From the NCBI GenBank assembly GCA_001800675.1, contig MGVW01000035.1:172772-208593 (forward strand): a stretch of DNA of 35,822 nucleotides, given 5' to 3'. Source of the DNA: Euryarchaeota archaeon RBG_13_57_23. GTDB lineage: Archaea > Thermoplasmatota > Thermoplasmata > UBA10834. Every line of letters starts with the position of its first letter. Positions within the stretch are counted from its first letter, which is position 1. The notes beneath the pieces were generated by a model. That model worked only from the letters and a program-made list of their open reading frames with translations, ran no database searches and was not told where the DNA came from. Below are positions 15,178 through 23,824 of the stretch, piece after piece. Position numbers and translations under genes: made by a program.

Positions 15178-15963
15178 ATGATTGGAAAGACGATCAGGCT
15201 GAGGCGGATCTTCAACCAGAAGACAGGGAAGACCGTCATCGTGCCGATGGACCACGGGATATCATTGGGTCCCGTCCAGGGCATTGCTGATATCAAAACT
15301 ACTATAGACAAGGTCGCCGAGGGGGGCGCCTCCGCGATAGTCATACACAAGGGTCTTGTACCGTATGCGGGCCCCTCGCTCGGGGCGAAGCTCGGTCTGA
15401 TCGTGCACATATCCGCCAGCACTTCTGTCTCTCCAGACCCGAACTACAAGGTCCTCGTGGCCCGGGCGGACGCCGCCGCAGCGCTCGGGGCGGACGGGAT
15501 CTCCATTCACTGTAACGTGGGGTGCGACGCCGAGGACAAGATGATCTCCGACTTCGGCATGGTCTCGGACAGATGCAGGGAACTCGGCATGCCGCTTCTC
15601 GCGATGTGCTACCCGAGAGGGAAGAACATCAAGGACTCGTACGAGGTCGGAGTCGTCTCACACTGCGCCCGGCTGGCAGCCGAGCTCGGGGCGGACGTCG
15701 TCAAGACCAACTTCACCGGGTCCATAGATACTTTCAAAACGGTCGTCAAGGGCACCCCGATACCAGTGGTCATCGCAGGTGGGCCGAAGATGGGCTCGGA
15801 GTTCGACCTCCTCTCGATGGTCTACGATGCGATGCAGGCGGGAGCCATGGGCATATCGATCGGCCGGAACGTGTTCCAGCACGAGGATGTGGCCGGCATC
15901 ACAAGGAGACTCTCGCAGATAGTTTTCGAGGGCATGCCGCCCAAGGATCAGTACAGGCGGTGA
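15178..15963 (+). CDS. aroA': 2-amino-3,7-dideoxy-D-threo-hept-6-ulosonate (ADH) synthase / class I FBA-like aldolase
   Basis: MIGKTIRLRRIFNQKTGKTVIVPMDHGISLGPVQGI...GADVVKTNFTGSIDTFKTVV...PVVIAGGPKMGSEFDLLSMVYDAMQAGAMGISIGRNVFQ. ATG 15178 preferred over TTG 15163. Confidence 0.92.
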   Translation: MIGKTIRLRRIFNQKTGKTVIVPMDHGISLGPVQGIADIKTTIDKVAEGGASAIVIHKGLVPYAGPSLGAKLGLIVHISASTSVSPDPNYKVLVARADAAAALGADGISIHCNVGCDAEDKMISDFGMVSDRCRELGMPLLAMCYPRGKNIKDSYEVGVVSHCARLAAELGADVVKTNFTGSIDTFKTVVKGTPIPVVIAGGPKMGSEFDLLSMVYDAMQAGAMGISIGRNVFQHEDVAGITRRLSQIVFEGMPPKDQYRR

Positions 15964-15967
15964 TCAC

Positions 15968-16999
15968 CTGATCGACCGCCAAATCTGGGTCGGTGCCCTT
16001 TTCCAACCCAGTAGTGAAAGCAGGAAGAAGATAGTCCTCTCCGCTCTGGAGAACGGTTTCGATACCGTGGTCCTCGAGAGACGCGACCTCGATTTCACGG
16101 ACCTGGGCAGGTTCAGAGCGCTCGTCATCGACGGCAAGGAAATCAAGGAAGACGATGAGACGGTCGCGCACTTGGTCGAGATAAGGGGGAAAGCTGACGA
16201 ACTGCGCGCGAAGAAGCTGGCGGAGAGGGGCAAGACCGTCGTCATCTCGGCGAAGGACTGGAAGGTCATCCCTCTTGAGAACCTGATAGTCCACTTCCAG
16301 GGCTCCGGGTCCAAGCTCCTGATGCTCTCGAGAACGTCCGAAGAGGCTAAGCTCTTCTTCGAGACCATGGAGCGGGGCGCAGATGGGGTCCTGATTGTGC
16401 CCGAAAAACTGGAGGAGCTCGCCAAGCTGAGGAAGCTATTGGAGGAGCGCTCCCCCAAACTCGAATTGAAAGAGGCCAAGATAACCTCCCTGAGACAACT
16501 CGGCCTCGGGGACAGGGTCTGCATAGACACTTGTTCGATGCTCCAGATAGGCGAGGGCATGCTGATAGGCAACCAGTCATCATGCCTCTTTCTAATTCAC
16601 TCAGAGACCCTGGGATCGGAATACGCAGCGTCCAGGCCCTTCAGGGTGAACGCCGGGCCAGTGCATGCATATATATTGATGCCTGACGGAAGCACGAGAT
16701 ACCTCTCGGAGCTCCAGGGAGGAGACGAAGCGCTGGTCGTGGGTGCGGACGGGCACACAAGAAAGGTGGTGGTCGGGAGGACCAAGGTGGAGAGGAGGCC
16801 CCTCCTGCTCATCGAGGCAGACGCCGATGGGGAGAGATTCTCAACCATCGTCCAGAACGCGGAGACGATAAGGGTCTACTCGAAGGGAAAGGTCGTGTCC
16901 GTCTCGAAGCTCAAGCTGGGCGACACGATCCTCATCAAACTGGAGCGCGGAGGCAGGCATTTCGGGATGTATGTGAAGGAGACCATCCGGGAGAAGTAA
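15968..16999 (+). CDS. aroB': 3-dehydroquinate synthase II (AroB'); predicted non-canonical CTG start
   Basis: ORF-track start (GTG 16067) omits the conserved N-terminus; upstream in-frame codons read LIDRQIWVGALFQPSSESRKKIVLSALENGFDTVVLER. Body contains LRQLGLGDRVCIDTCSMLQIGEGMLIGNQSSCLFLIHSETL...FRVNAGPVHAYIL. Confidence 0.88.
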   Translation: MIDRQIWVGALFQPSSESRKKIVLSALENGFDTVVLERRDLDFTDLGRFRALVIDGKEIKEDDETVAHLVEIRGKADELRAKKLAERGKTVVISAKDWKVIPLENLIVHFQGSGSKLLMLSRTSEEAKLFFETMERGADGVLIVPEKLEELAKLRKLLEERSPKLELKEAKITSLRQLGLGDRVCIDTCSMLQIGEGMLIGNQSSCLFLIHSETLGSEYAASRPFRVNAGPVHAYILMPDGSTRYLSELQGGDEALVVGADGHTRKVVVGRTKVERRPLLLIEADADGERFSTIVQNAETIRVYSKGKVVSVSKLKLGDTILIKLERGGRHFGMYVKETIREK

Positions 17000-18475
17000 A
17001 TGACCATAATCGTCGCTTCTCTCGTCGGGGGAAGCATTGCTGGAGTTTCGGGCTCGTCAAAGGCAGCATTCAGACAGGGAGCAGATGCGGTGGAGGTCAG
17101 GCTGGATCACTTCGGCAACCTCAAACCGTCAGCCCTGCCCAGGATACGTGATGCGTGCCAGGGCTCGACGATCGCCACTCTTCGCTCGAAAGAAGAGGGC
17201 GGGAAATCGAAGCTGGGTCCGAAAGCCAGAGACTCGATGCTGCGGGAGATAGTCCGCGCTGGATTCCACGGCGTCGATCTTGAAATCGGAAGCGACCGCG
17301 CGCTGCTCAGAGAGCTCGGAGGGAGCAAGGATCGACCTGTGACGATCGCATCCGCTCATTTCTGGAACCCTGTTCCCGAAGGGCTGGTCGAATCGACCCT
17401 CAACCAAGCGTGCATGCTAGGCGATGTCGGCAAGGTGGCCATGCAGTGCGAGGACGCCGCTCAGGCAGTCATGCTGGCCAACATCGGCATGAAATACGCG
17501 ACCCGTGGGAAGCGATTCGTGATCATCGGCATGGGAGACCAGGGCAGGCTCACCAGAGTCTGCGCGAGCAGGATCGGATCCGCGATGATGTTCGCCTGCC
17601 TTGGCGGGAAGGAGGCGGCTCCTGGCCAGCTCGATGTGAATACCCAGAAGCTCTTCGATTCAGGGCCGCTGGTTTTCGGGCTCGTCGGGCACCCGGTCTC
17701 CCACTCCGTGTCAAAGCAGATGCACGAGGCGGCGCTCAAGGATTTGGGGCTCGTGGGAGCATACATTCCACTCGACTTCCCACCGGGCGCTTTCGACCAT
17801 CATGCATTAGCCACCCTGAGGACCATCGGCTTCCAGGGGCTCAACGTCACGATCCCGCACAAGGGGACGGCCTTCGAAATCGCAACCCGGACGGAGCAAT
17901 CGGCCTCCGCGACAAAGGCGGTCAACACCATCAGGTTCAAAGACGGTAAGATTATAGGAGAAAACACGGATGTGTTCGGCTTCTCAACTCTGGTTGAAGG
18001 AAAAATACACATCACCAAACACACCAGGGTCCTCATCGTTGGGGCAGGCGGTGCCTCTCGCGCGGTCGCGTACGTGCTCAGGAAGCTCGGGGCGAAATTC
18101 GAGGTCGCGGACATCGAGGCGTCCAGGGCGACGGACCTCGCGAGGATGTTCGGTGGAAGGGCGGTCTCAGTTCGCTCGGCCATGAGCGCTGATGAGCCAT
18201 ATGACCTAGTGATCAATTGCACTCCCGTCGGCATGAAAGGGATGCCCGGTAGCCCAGTGAAGGCGAACCTCTTCACGCGAGGCTCCGTGTACATAGATAT
18301 CGTCTACAATCCGGAGTCGACCGCTGCGATGAAGCTGGCCAGAAGGAAAGGCGCCAGGGTCTACGGAGGGCTCGAGATGCTCGTCCAGCAGGGGGCACAG
18401 TCCTTCAGGCTATGGACGGGGAGGGAGCCGGATGTGGGCGTCATGAGGAGCGTCGCGAGGAGGGCGCTGAGATGA
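17000..18475 (+). CDS. aroDE: Bifunctional 3-dehydroquinate dehydratase (type I) / shikimate 5-dehydrogenase
   Basis: N-terminal DAVEVRLDHFGNL, IASAHFWNPVPEG, GDVGKVAM, MGDQGRLTRV (type I DHQase); C-terminal VFGLVGHPVSHSVSKQMHEAAL, GLNVTIPHKGTAF, NTDVFGF, GAGGASRAV (AroE). Confidence 0.93.
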   Translation: MTIIVASLVGGSIAGVSGSSKAAFRQGADAVEVRLDHFGNLKPSALPRIRDACQGSTIATLRSKEEGGKSKLGPKARDSMLREIVRAGFHGVDLEIGSDRALLRELGGSKDRPVTIASAHFWNPVPEGLVESTLNQACMLGDVGKVAMQCEDAAQAVMLANIGMKYATRGKRFVIIGMGDQGRLTRVCASRIGSAMMFACLGGKEAAPGQLDVNTQKLFDSGPLVFGLVGHPVSHSVSKQMHEAALKDLGLVGAYIPLDFPPGAFDHHALATLRTIGFQGLNVTIPHKGTAFEIATRTEQSASATKAVNTIRFKDGKIIGENTDVFGFSTLVEGKIHITKHTRVLIVGAGGASRAVAYVLRKLGAKFEVADIEASRATDLARMFGGRAVSVRSAMSADEPYDLVINCTPVGMKGMPGSPVKANLFTRGSVYIDIVYNPESTAAMKLARRKGARVYGGLEMLVQQGAQSFRLWTGREPDVGVMRSVARRALR

Positions 18476-19341
18476 TTGGCAAAGCCGCCTGCAGAGGCGC
18501 AGCCACGATAGTGAACGCGATCGCGACCGGCAAGGGCGCTGCATTTGGGATCTCGCTCGAGGTCGATGCCGCAGTAGAGCTCACAGAGGGTCCCGGAGAG
18601 ATCACGCTGAGGGATTCCCGGGAGGGAGCCGACCTCGTCGCTGGGTGTGTCCGAGCCATTGCGAAGAAGGCACTCGGCAACAGGATGGTCAACGGCGAGG
18701 TCCATGTCAAATCCGAGATTCCAGTCTCCAGAGGCCTGAAAAGCAGCAGCGCTGTGTCCAACGCCGTCGCGCTGGCGACTGCTAAAGCCGTGGGAACGGA
18801 TCTTCCTGATATGGAGATCATTCTGGCCGGGATCGAGGAGTCGATCAAGGCGGGAGTCACTATCACAGGAGCGTTCGATGACGCATCCGCCTGCTACTTC
18901 GGCGGGGTCGTCGTGACGGACAACAGGAACTTCGCGATACTTCACAGGGGAACTCTTGATCCCGACCTCGAAGTGCTCCTGCACGTGCCCGACAGGAAGA
19001 TTACCAAGGCAAGCGTCAAAGGACTCGACTTCAGTCCCATAAGGAAGGAGGTAGAGAAGGCCTACGAGCTGGCCATGCAAGGCAGCTACCTGAAGGCGAT
19101 GGAGGTCAATTCCAGAGCGTATGCAAAGGTCCTCGACGTCTCAGAGGACGTCGCTGAGCTTGCCCGCAAGAAGGGAGCTCTGGCTGCTGGCATCTCGGGC
19201 ACTGGCCCCGCGACCGCGATCATATGCGACAAGGCGGATGTCGGAGTGCTCATGAGCGCGCTCCAGAATCATGATGGCGCTGTACTGAGAGCGCACATCA
19301 ACGACGTCCCAGCGAGGGAGGTGGTTCCACGCCTCTTGTAG
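18472..19341 (+). CDS. Archaeal (GHMP) shikimate kinase
   Basis: MIGKAACRGAATIVNAIATGKGAAFGISLEVDAAVEL, SRGLKSSSAVSNAVALA, SGTGPATAIICD; ATGA overlap with aroDE stop. Confidence 0.92.
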   Translation: MIGKAACRGAATIVNAIATGKGAAFGISLEVDAAVELTEGPGEITLRDSREGADLVAGCVRAIAKKALGNRMVNGEVHVKSEIPVSRGLKSSSAVSNAVALATAKAVGTDLPDMEIILAGIEESIKAGVTITGAFDDASACYFGGVVVTDNRNFAILHRGTLDPDLEVLLHVPDRKITKASVKGLDFSPIRKEVEKAYELAMQGSYLKAMEVNSRAYAKVLDVSEDVAELARKKGALAAGISGTGPATAIICDKADVGVLMSALQNHDGAVLRAHINDVPAREVVPRLL

Positions 19342-20600
19342 TCAAGTCATCTGTCGCGAAAGGGACGGTCACGGCTCCGCCCTCGAAATCCTACACTCAC
19401 AGAGCGATGGTGCTGGGTGCCCTCACCTACTCCAACTTCTCGCTCGTCAACCCGTTGATGTCGGAGGACACGAGGGCGACCCTGGATGCACTCTACTCCC
19501 TCGGGACCGATTTCAGGAGCAACGCGAAGGGTGTGATGATACAATGCGACGCCCTCAAGGGGGCCCGCGTGGTAATCGACGCCAAGAACTCCGGCACGAC
19601 CATCCGTCTGATAACCGGGGTCGCCTCGCTACTGCCCTCGACGACCACATTGACTGGCGATGAGAGCCTCGTCAGGAGGCCCATGGGTCCTCTTGTCGAT
19701 GCATTGACACAGCTGGGGGCCAAGGTCTCGTACCTCAGTCACGTTGGACGCCCACCACTCAGTATCACAGGGCCGATCACCGGCGAGCGCGCAGAAATCC
19801 CCGCCAACATCAGCTCACAGTTCGTATCCTCGCTTCTCATAGCATGTTCCCAGAAGAAGGACGATACCCAGATACAGCTGGAGGGAGAGCTACGGTCGAG
19901 GCCCTACGTCGACATCACCCTCCAGATGATGGAGGAGTTCGGAGCGCACGCGGAAGAGAACGAGGAGGGATTCTTTGTCGAGGGCCAGCAGCAGCTCTCC
20001 CGCGAGAGCTACACCGTACCAGGAGATTACTCGTCAGCGGCGTTTCCGCTTGCTGCAGCTGCGATATCCGGCGGCGACGTCACCGTCAGGAACTTGGACA
20101 AGGCCTCGCCGCAGGGTGACAAGGCTTTCCTGGACCACCTCAGATCCTTCGGGACCAAGGTCACTCGGACGGACAGCTCCGTCCGCGTCAAGTCGGCGGA
20201 CTTGAAGGGGATCGACATCGACGTGCGGAACACGCCAGACCTCTTCCCCATTCTTGCGGTAGTCGGTGCTGTCGCTGATGGCAAGACCGTCCTGAGCGGC
20301 GGGGAGAACCTCAGGGAGAAAGAGAGTGACAGGATCGCGACGACGACTCGGTTCCTCCTGGACATGGGTGCGAACATCGTGCCCAAGGAGGACGGGTGCG
20401 AGATCGTCGGCGTTCAGAAGCTCCACGGTACGACCGTCAAGACCGAAGGGGACCACAGAATACTAATGGCTGCAGCTGTTGCGTCTTTGGTAGCCTCGTC
20501 TGAGACGAGTATAGATGACACGGATTCATTCAACGTTTCATATCCAGGGTTCATCAGGGACCTTCATCAGCTAGGCTGCCGCCTCATGGTGAGAAAATGA
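19329..20600 (+). CDS. aroA: 5-enolpyruvylshikimate-3-phosphate synthase; start uncertain, no canonical start upstream of the conserved N-terminus
   Basis: Upstream in-frame TPLVVKSSVAKGTVTAPPSKSYTHRA carries the PPSKSYTHRA substrate motif omitted by ORF start 19407. Body: KNSGTTIRL, YVDITLQMMEEFGA, DYSSAAFPLAAAAI, REKESDRIA, GDHRILMA. Confidence 0.9.
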   Translation, partial: TPLVVKSSVAKGTVTAPPSKSYTHRAMVLGALTYSNFSLVNPLMSEDTRATLDALYSLGTDFRSNAKGVMIQCDALKGARVVIDAKNSGTTIRLITGVASLLPSTTTLTGDESLVRRPMGPLVDALTQLGAKVSYLSHVGRPPLSITGPITGERAEIPANISSQFVSSLLIACSQKKDDTQIQLEGELRSRPYVDITLQMMEEFGAHAEENEEGFFVEGQQQLSRESYTVPGDYSSAAFPLAAAAISGGDVTVRNLDKASPQGDKAFLDHLRSFGTKVTRTDSSVRVKSADLKGIDIDVRNTPDLFPILAVVGAVADGKTVLSGGENLREKESDRIATTTRFLLDMGANIVPKEDGCEIVGVQKLHGTTVKTEGDHRILMAAAVASLVASSETSIDDTDSFNVSYPGFIRDLHQLGCRLMVRK

Positions 20601-21673
20601 ACGAGTTCGGAGTGAAGTACAGGATAGGCATCTTCGGGTCCAGCCACGGACCGTGCGTGGGAGCCAAGATCGAGGGCTGTCCAGCAGGTGCTAGGGTCTC
20701 CGAATCGGCAATTCAGATAGAGCTCGACAGGAGGAGTCCAGGCAAGGGCCCGGTCACCAGTCCCCGAAGAGAGAGGGACAAGCTGGAGATTCTCTCTGGC
20801 ATAAGGAAGGGGAAGGCGACGGGTGGCCCGATAGTCGGGATGGTAAGGAATATGGACACCGACTCCTCCGCATACGACGCTTTCCTGAGAGTCCCCAGAC
20901 CAGGACATGCGGACTACCCCGCGCTGGTCAAGTACGGAGGGCACCACGACCACAGGGGCGGCGGGCAGTTCTCCGGCAGGATGACCGCGGGGCTCGTCAT
21001 AGGCGGAGCCATAGCCAGGCAAGTGCTCGAGAAGAAGGGCGTCGCATTCCTCGGCCAGACCGTTCAGATAGGATCGATTAGGGTGGAGAAGGACATCCCC
21101 TTCAGCATCGCAGAGAAGATCGTGAGGACCAGCCCTGTCGCATGCGCTGACAGGGGCAAGACGGAGGCGATGGTCGACGCGATCGTCAAGGCGCATGAGG
21201 CGAAGGACAGTGTCGGAGGAGTCGTGAAGTGCACTGTACTCGGGCTCCCCGTCGGCGTCGGTGAACCGTTCTTCGGATCCGTGGAGAGCATGCTCTCAGC
21301 AATGATGTACTCCATCCCTGGAGTGAAAGGAGTCGAATTCGGCTCGGGCTTCAAGGCCGCCTCGATGAGAGGCAGCGCCCACAACGACCCATACGGCGTG
21401 CGGAACGGAAGAATCATAACGAAGACGAACAACGCCGGAGGGGTGCTTGGTGGACTTTCCACAGGCATGCCGATCGAATTCAGAGTCGCATTCAAGCCGA
21501 CTTCTTCGATAGCGCGTCCCCAGATGAGCGTGGATGTCGTGGACAAGAAGCCTGTGGAACTTGAGATCAAAGGCCGACACGACCCGTGCATTGTCCCCAG
21601 GGCGGTTCCCGTCGTTGAGAACTCCACGGCTGCCGTAATCCTGGATCTCATGCTTCAGGGGGGGTTCACCTGA
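20597..21673 (+). CDS. aroC: Chorismate synthase
   Basis: GIFGSSHGPCVGAKIEGCPAG, GGHHDHRGGGQFSGRMTA, GSAHNDPY, GGVLGGLSTGMPIEFRVAFKPTSSI. Confidence 0.95.
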   Translation: MNEFGVKYRIGIFGSSHGPCVGAKIEGCPAGARVSESAIQIELDRRSPGKGPVTSPRRERDKLEILSGIRKGKATGGPIVGMVRNMDTDSSAYDAFLRVPRPGHADYPALVKYGGHHDHRGGGQFSGRMTAGLVIGGAIARQVLEKKGVAFLGQTVQIGSIRVEKDIPFSIAEKIVRTSPVACADRGKTEAMVDAIVKAHEAKDSVGGVVKCTVLGLPVGVGEPFFGSVESMLSAMMYSIPGVKGVEFGSGFKAASMRGSAHNDPYGVRNGRIITKTNNAGGVLGGLSTGMPIEFRVAFKPTSSIARPQMSVDVVDKKPVELEIKGRHDPCIVPRAVPVVENSTAAVILDLMLQGGFT

Positions 21674-22755
21674 CAAGAACGGAAATCGAGTCACTCCGAG
21701 ATGAGATCACGAAGATCGACTCACAGCTCTTGGATCTCGTTGCGAGACGGGCTGATGTGGCGGGGGAGATAGGTCGCATGAAGGCGAAGGACGGCCTCCG
21801 GACAAGAGACCCTGCCAGAGAGAAACAGATCAAGGCAGCTTTCGCCCGGAATGCGAGGAGACTCGGAGTCAACGAGAACCTCGCTACCGAACTCGCAGTC
21901 CTTCTCATCAACGACGCAGTCAAGATCCAGACCAGGAATGCCGCGAAGAACCTCAGAGGAAGATCGGCCCTCATCGTCGGAGGGTCTGGTCGAATGGGCG
22001 CATGGATGTGCAGGTTCCTGTCGGGCAGAGGAGCATCAGTGACCTTATGGGATCCGCGAGGTTCGCTACCAGGATACAGATCGGTCAAGTCAGTTCGCAA
22101 GGTGGCCAGCGAATCTGATCTCGTCGTTATCGCGAGCCCGTTGGGCGTTGCAGCCAAGGAACTCAGAGAAGTCCTTCGGTCGTCGCCTCAAGGGACCGTT
22201 TTCGACATCTGCAGCGTCAAGGATCACTTGGCCAAAGACATCAAAGCAGCAGCGGGAAGGGGTACCCGCATAACTAGCGTCCACCCGATGTTCGGCCCCG
22301 GCGTGGCCTCCCCAAGAGGGCGAAACGTGCTTGTCTGCAAGTGCGGCTGCGCTGGAGCGGATCGGGAGATCGTCGGTTTGTTCTCCTCGGCCGGAGCGAA
22401 GGTCACGAAGATTGGAGTGGACGGACACGACGAGCTGATGGCGTATGTGCTCGGCCTCCCGCATCTGTGCACGATCGCATTTGCCAGCACGGCTGAGAAG
22501 TCAAGAATCCCATTCGCCGAACTCGCACGGGTGCAAGGGCCTTCCTTCGACCGTCTAGCAAGGAGTGCCATCGAGCTTTCAAAAGAGAGCAGAAGAGTAT
22601 ATCATGACATTCAACTCCTCAACCCCAAATCCAAGGATATGATCTCAGGCATGGAGAAAGCTCTAGCCGAACTCAGGTTCGCGGCTCTTGCCAGGGATCC
22701 CGAGGCGTTCAGGACCATCATCGACAGATGTGAGGAATACCTAGAGGTGAGCTGA
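21670..22755 (+). CDS. tyrA: Chorismate mutase / prephenate dehydrogenase fusion; predicted non-canonical CTG start overlapping aroC stop (CTGA)
   Basis: In-frame upstream LTRTEIESLRDEITKIDSQLLDLVARRADVAGEIGRMK completes the CM helix; GRSALIVGGSGRMGAWMCRFLSGRG...SVHPMFGPGV is the prephenate dehydrogenase part. ORF-track start is TTG 21730. Confidence 0.88.
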   Translation: MTRTEIESLRDEITKIDSQLLDLVARRADVAGEIGRMKAKDGLRTRDPAREKQIKAAFARNARRLGVNENLATELAVLLINDAVKIQTRNAAKNLRGRSALIVGGSGRMGAWMCRFLSGRGASVTLWDPRGSLPGYRSVKSVRKVASESDLVVIASPLGVAAKELREVLRSSPQGTVFDICSVKDHLAKDIKAAAGRGTRITSVHPMFGPGVASPRGRNVLVCKCGCAGADREIVGLFSSAGAKVTKIGVDGHDELMAYVLGLPHLCTIAFASTAEKSRIPFAELARVQGPSFDRLARSAIELSKESRRVYHDIQLLNPKSKDMISGMEKALAELRFAALARDPEAFRTIIDRCEEYLEVS

Positions 22756-22756
22756 A

Positions 22757-23824
22757 ATGGCGAAGAAGAAAGCAGCAATACTTGGCTCAAGCGGAATGAT
22801 CGGCCAGCGATTCGCTCACATGCTGAACGACCACCCATACTTCGATGTCGTCGCTTACTGCGCCTCCGACAGGTCGGAGGGTAAGAAGCTCGCGGACGTA
22901 TGGAGACTGAGCGATCTGGACACCATCCCGGGGCTTTCGGAAGAGGTCATTCAGGCGACCGCAACCTCTGCGCTGATCAAGGAAGGCGTGGAGGTGGCGT
23001 TCAGCGGCCTTCCGTCCGATGTTGCGGGGCCCATCGAAAACGACCTCGCCGAGGCGGGCATAGCAGTATTCTCCAACGCCGCATCACATCGCATGGAACC
23101 GGACACTCCTATCCTGATACCGGAGATCAACGCAGAACACCTGGCCTCCGTGGAAGTGCAGAAGAGGAGGCGGAAGAAGGGTGGGTTCATCGTGACGAAC
23201 GCCAACTGCTCGGTCACTGGGCTCGCCCTTGGCCTGAAGCCATTGGTCGACAAGTTCGGATTCACAGAGATAGATGTCGCCACATATCAGGCGCTCTCGG
23301 GCGCTGGCTACCCGGGAGTATCTTCTCTCGACATCACCGGCAACGTCCTGCCATGGATCAAGAACGAGGAGGAGAAGATGGGCCTCGAGGGGAAGAAGAT
23401 CCTCGGCGCGTGGAAGAACGGCAGGTTCGTGGACAGCCCCGTGAACATCATGGCGTCTTGCGCCAGAGTCCACGTAAGGGATGGACACCTGGAAGCGGTA
23501 TTCATAAGGGATCGAGCCATCCCGGATGCGAAGACCATCGCGAAGGAACTCAGGAGCTTCAGGGCCAAACCACAGAAGCTGAAACTGCCGAGCGCGCCCG
23601 AGCAACCAATCATTGTCATGGATGAGCCGAACCGACCCCAGCCACTGCTCGACTCATACGCGGGAACACCTGATAGGGCCCGCGGTATGGCGACGGTGAT
23701 AGGCAGGATCCGAGTGACCGAAGGATGCCTCAGATTCTATCTCCTGTCACACAACACGATAAGAGGCGGAGCGGGAGGCTCGGTCTTGAACGCAGAACTG
23801 GCATTCAAGGAGGGAGTGATTTGA
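22757..23824 (+). CDS. asd: Aspartate-semialdehyde dehydrogenase
   Basis: AAILGSSGMIGQRFAHMLNDHPYF, IVTNANCSVTGLALGLKPL, ATYQALSGAGYPGVSS, CARVHVRDGHLEAVFI. Confidence 0.95.
   Translation: MAKKKAAILGSSGMIGQRFAHMLNDHPYFDVVAYCASDRSEGKKLADVWRLSDLDTIPGLSEEVIQATATSALIKEGVEVAFSGLPSDVAGPIENDLAEAGIAVFSNAASHRMEPDTPILIPEINAEHLASVEVQKRRRKKGGFIVTNANCSVTGLALGLKPLVDKFGFTEIDVATYQALSGAGYPGVSSLDITGNVLPWIKNEEEKMGLEGKKILGAWKNGRFVDSPVNIMASCARVHVRDGHLEAVFIRDRAIPDAKTIAKELRSFRAKPQKLKLPSAPEQPIIVMDEPNRPQPLLDSYAGTPDRARGMATVIGRIRVTEGCLRFYLLSHNTIRGGAGGSVLNAELAFKEGVI

Follow-up and report, generated by a model that had tools for sequence, protein, structure and literature searches.

Initiation of translation at codons other than AUG, GUG and UUG is rare in prokaryotes. 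A review of archaeal initiation names these three codons only (PMC7531240), CUG accounts for 0.024% of bacterial starts (PMC11497404), and reconstructed switches from AUG to CUG amount to about 3 in 100,000 (PMC5622118). The rare near-cognate initiation at CUG, AUU and ACG in bacteria and archaea depends on a Shine-Dalgarno (SD) sequence and involves a mismatch at the first or second base of the initiator anticodon pairing. Initiator tRNAs almost universally carry three GC pairs in the anticodon stem; G1338 and A1339 make A-minor contacts with pairs 29-41 and 30-40 in archaeal and bacterial initiation complexes, with G29-C41 contacting G1338 (PMC7005279). In E. coli, swapping G30-C40 reduces discrimination against CUG (PMC11497404). 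A second system with a bearing on unusual starts is termination-reinitiation at ATGA and TGATG overlaps, described in Haloferax and E. coli; archaea are known to use such coupling (PMC6728339, PMC10666635).

The window analyzed here, a stretch of 35,822 nucleotides from Euryarchaeota archaeon RBG_13_57_23, carries an aro operon on the plus strand in which comparison of sequences indicates that three genes, tyrA, aroB' and aroA, very probably start at CUG 21670, CUG 15968 and ACG 19329, respectively. The neighboring genes aroDE (17000..18475), the archaeal shikimate kinase gene aroK (18472..19341) and aroC (20597..21673, in an ATGA overlap with the aroA stop) all begin with ATG, and these three, together with asd, have canonical starts throughout the family. 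The gene after asd begins with TTG (23821..23823) in a TTGA overlap, and its relatives have CTG, ATA, ATG or GTG in the same column, the ATA occurring in genome G018 within an ATAA overlap. At the aroC start column of Methanomassiliicoccus UBA6 (L067) stands CTG, its relatives having ATG, GTG or TTG, so that CTG starts exist outside the order as well.

The tyrA product is a fused chorismate mutase/prephenate dehydrogenase of 361 aa when read from the CTG (21670..22755), with the same type II chorismate mutase and prephenate dehydrogenase domains and the same catalytic residues as known TyrA proteins of this kind, from which it differs solely in its start codon. Its matches to PF01817 (58.6 bits), PF02153 (38.8 bits) and PF20463 (30.3 bits) are all above cut-off. 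The CTG (21670..21672) overlaps the aroC stop TGA (21671..21673) as CTGA. Although 17 codons are open upstream of it, ATG, GTG and TTG are absent from the tyrA frame between the upstream in-frame stop and TTG 21730, the first canonical codon of the frame, which corresponds to residue 21. This TTG (21730..21732) is the start picked by mechanical ORF calling. A start there would be costly: residues L9, R10, I13 and D17 of the catalytic helix are all encoded upstream, as the preliminary description had argued for the chorismate mutase helix, and R10, I13 and D17 are invariant in an alignment of 19 homologues. R10, the N-terminal catalytic arginine of helix 1, is present only if translation begins upstream of the TTG. 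The match to CM_2 (PF01817) spans profile positions 1-79 with the CTG start and falls to positions 14-79 and 39.8 bits with the TTG start, which moreover has an SD score of 2; TTG 21730 was accordingly rejected as the start of tyrA.

For tyrA, 17 genomes from the window genome's own family and two from a sister family supplied the loci compared; these and the other relatives are Thermoplasmata/Thermoplasmatota genomes, both draft and complete. In the column of CTG 21670, 10 of the 17 family genomes have CTG, five ATG and two GTG, and both sister-family genomes have CTG; the codon overlaps the aroC stop in every case and always has a G-rich or purine-rich SD stretch 5' to it. The swapping of CTG, ATG and GTG at one column indicates that it behaves as a start codon, and the start on the aroC stop suggested by the preliminary description thus stands. 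CTG also occupies the tyrA start column of G038, a genome outside the order. The first base of this NTG doubles as the third codon position of aroC, so the C found there is partly set by composition.

The tyrA SD, AGGGGGGG (21657..21664), has a score of 5.6 and lies 5-7 nt from the CTG. It includes a run of seven G at 21658-21664, AGGGGGGGTT, which had earlier been misread as six, AGGGGGGTT; in some ATG-start relatives the SD is replaced by AGGAGG. The same run raises the prospect that tyrA has no start of its own: ribosomes (or RNA polymerase) could slip by -1 on the heptamer G_GGG_GGG where aroC ends, yielding a joined AroC-TyrA protein. The sequence CAG GGG GGG TTC fits the X_XXY_YYZ pattern perfectly and is exactly in phase for such a fusion, and G_GGG_GG(A/G) is kept in most CTG-start relatives and absent from several ATG-start relatives. 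The heptamer is, however, retained in relatives with ATG (G011) and GTG (G010, G012), and it is not conserved wherever a canonical tyrA start is missing, since sister-family genome G020 keeps the CTG behind ACA GGG GGT, which is not slippery. As the G run doubles as the SD, and as no slippery site is found at aroB', aroA or the PurF and FeS cases described below, slippage is a very improbable account.

The start of aroB' (3-dehydroquinate synthase II) is CTG 15968..15970, where eight of ten genomes have CTG, one TTG and one (locus L055) ATC, and PF01959 begins at residue 4 of the protein. An upstream stop, TGA 15961-15963, is followed by 4 nt and then by the CTG, which therefore lies past that stop, and its first base is no codon position of another gene. 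The aroB' SD, AGGCGGTGATC (15955..15965), scores 7 at a spacing of 7. In aroA, encoding EPSP synthase, the start ACG 19329..19331 lies within the end of aroK and is preceded by GGGAGGTGGTTCC. The codon is ACG in 16 of 18 genomes of the order and GCG in two, and the SD, GGGAGGTG (19316..19323; score 8.9, spacing 7), is kept as GGAGGTG in all 18. The ACG is also kept in the sister family, where the end of aroK differs, and in Methanomassiliicoccales outgroups the aroA ATG aligns with ACG 19329. The two genomes with GCG are G017 and G008 (loci L057 and L058); GCG has two mismatches to the initiator anticodon, which makes the true aroA start in these two doubtful. Across genes, near-cognate start columns exchange with canonical codons in tyrA, a CooC-like gene and the gene at 23821, whereas aroB' has TTG once and aroA has ATG in outgroups only.

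Scored over spacings of 5-9, the three SDs (aroB' 7.0, aroA 8.9, tyrA 5.6) match or surpass those of most canonical starts within the operon, and the rejected canonical codons score 2-3. Out-of-frame codon positions in the 3' ends of genes reach these scores in 0.22% (aroB'), 0.03% (aroA) and 1.1% (tyrA) of cases. A spacing of 7 nt, found at aroB', aroA and an HdrC-like CTG gene, is also the commonest value among clean ATG genes of the window genome. The view that one operon holds three conserved non-canonical starts with good SDs is thereby upheld.

Two further readings would dispense with near-cognate initiation altogether. Because the window genome is a draft assembly, 75% complete, the odd starts could stem from faulty reads or assembly, from pseudogenes, or from translation that truly begins at a canonical codon further downstream; the same start columns recur, however, in more than 17 genomes assembled independently of one another, conserved residues precede the canonical codons and the frames are intact, so that this reading is scarcely credible. 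C-to-U editing of the mRNA (CUG to UUG, ACG to AUG, GCG to GUG) would turn every CTG and all 18 aroA codons, 16 ACG and two GCG, canonical. Yet such editing could not repair the ATA of gene 23821 in G018 or the ATC of aroB' at L055, and the free interchange of CTG, ATG and GTG at start columns speaks against it; it seems extremely unlikely.

Starts of the same kind were sought elsewhere, as the preliminary description had proposed, by applying intrinsic criteria to 669 kb from the window genome and to samples of three relatives. The survey uncovered more of them: sampled family genomes have CTG starts outside the aro operon in CooC-like, UbiD-like, CDP-alcohol transferase, uL13, PurF and FeS genes, bringing such starts to about 1% of sampled genes. 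Known near-cognate starts are isolated genes, in contrast to this order-wide occurrence, which includes essential biosynthesis genes. In the CooC-like ATPase the P-loop lies 8 residues past the CTG, and the column is CTG in three genomes and ATG or GTG in others. The CooC-like gene of G009 (L264) has an in-frame TGA CCA TTA ACG ACC TTC before the P-loop and lacks a canonical start after that TGA, so that ACG or TTA must initiate. CTG starts were found in two genera for both the UbiD-like and the CDP-alcohol transferase genes, and PurF and the 4Fe4S gene have stop-bounded starts of the form 'TGA GGT CTG'. Where a 4-nt NTGA overlap is not followed by a later canonical codon, the overlap reads CTG in 12 of 57 family cases and in 0 of 21 from an outgroup (Fisher p=0.016, uncorrected for false cases). 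Unexplained starts occur in the outgroup sample too, and the difference between family and outgroup is one of degree.

The survey can overlook genes that lack a homologue for comparison, and the genomes were mostly drafts read in part. A comparative scan with gene boundaries covered 334 genes, most of which, except the clear ones, had one partial relative only; its clear non-canonical starts were limited to aroB', aroA and tyrA, with possibly one GTPase. A version without boundaries was set aside, since most of its signal came from conserved genes lying upstream in different frames. Many intrinsic candidates, especially from G006, were antisense shadow frames or runs of N and were discarded; CTGATG overlaps are ATG starts, and the candidate L134:13331 probably begins at an upstream TTG. 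A tally of SD-directed codons was too noisy to give a rate.

These additional genes also bear on termination-reinitiation, according to which a post-termination ribosome must restart at the stop and the identity of the codon barely matters. The aro operon has the same 4-nt overlaps and tight spacing as the systems of Haloferax and E. coli but with CTG and ACG as start codons, and the starts of aroB', aroA, tyrA, HdrC-like, CooC-like, uL13 and CDP-alcohol transferase genes all lie no more than 13 nt from an upstream stop, whereas 17-32% of clean canonical starts have one within 20 nt. This enrichment is biased, since the scan favors stop-bounded genes. The upstream stop is distant from the CTG starts of the UbiD-like gene (over 1.7 kb) and PurF (205 nt), so that some cases have no need of coupling, and canonical starts in the operon sit equally tightly on stops (the ATGA overlaps of aroK and aroC, TTGA at 23821). 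Coupling may aid many near-cognate genes but is not required, and as the cause of these starts, which the preliminary description had suggested, it is unlikely.

Direct SD-guided initiation is therefore left as the preferred reading, and a possible reason for its tolerance appears in the initiator tRNA, one of the components that had been recommended for inspection. In all 19 genomes of the order in which it was read (L298, at G000:C1:7926-8000, and L299-L316), the initiator has A29:U41, its anticodon stem being TCAGG/CCUGA, whereas G29:C41 is present in 11 of 11 genomes representing nine further Thermoplasmata families. A pattern search for A29:U41, which would miss tRNA genes containing introns, matched 19 of 300 genomes of the class, all in this order. 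Measured against the canonical initiator (A1:U72, G29:C41, G30:C40, G31:C39), the order deviates at 29:41 and keeps the other features. The other components are unremarkable. The factor aIF1, also recommended for inspection, was identified in the window genome and the majority of its relatives with its basic loop RRYGK conserved, neither loss nor a change of this loop being seen among them, and thus offers no explanation. Likewise, no change of G1338/A1339 or of the anti-SD was found in the 16S rRNAs read, which were those of relatives of the window genome in the family and sister family; the GGA motif and GGATCACCTCCT are intact.

The mechanism envisaged for tyrA would be ordinary SD-directed initiation at CUG, with the methionyl initiator tRNA tolerating a mismatch at the first base; the CUG of aroB' and the ACG of aroA would be read in the same way, and methionine would presumably be inserted at each. 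Substitution of A29:U41 for G29:C41 may weaken the inspection of the anticodon stem by the ribosome, and CUG or ACG codons with a good SD could then be accepted. Taken as a whole, SD-guided near-cognate initiation permitted by a relaxed initiator is a likely explanation. Its two halves differ in strength: direct SD-guided initiation is well supported by the conserved columns, the SDs and their spacing, the lack of canonical codons and the further CTG-start genes, while the relaxed initiator is a correlation within a single clade, which amounts to one evolutionary event. That A29:U41 is the cause of near-cognate tolerance in the order can be proposed only tentatively. The closest parallel is the E. 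coli initiator variant M1 (C30:G40), in which, as here, an altered GC pair of the anticodon stem is tied to discrimination against CUG. M1, however, is a laboratory mutant in which initiation is cut about 20-fold, and the pair A29:U41 is natural and fixed in the order. Two points count against the tRNA as cause: in E. coli M1 changes the pair 30-40 instead of 29-41 and depresses initiation overall, and CTG occupies some start columns outside the order (aroC of L067, tyrA of G038). A more general reading, in which fixation of A29:U41 has relaxed start selection across the order, so that CUG serves routinely as a fourth start codon and aroA keeps a conserved ACG start, is similarly possible but rather doubtful.

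If the reading is true, standard gene callers truncate or miss about 1% of the genes of this order, and its gene models need additional start codons. The question why GUG and UUG serve as start codons and CUG hardly ever does is still open; the initiator's three GC pairs are thought to impose this preference. A natural lineage with an altered GC pair and conserved CUG and ACG starts would make this question testable by evolutionary comparison and by reporters, and for this uncultured archaeal order it offers a testable link between an unusual initiator tRNA and a looser choice of start codon.
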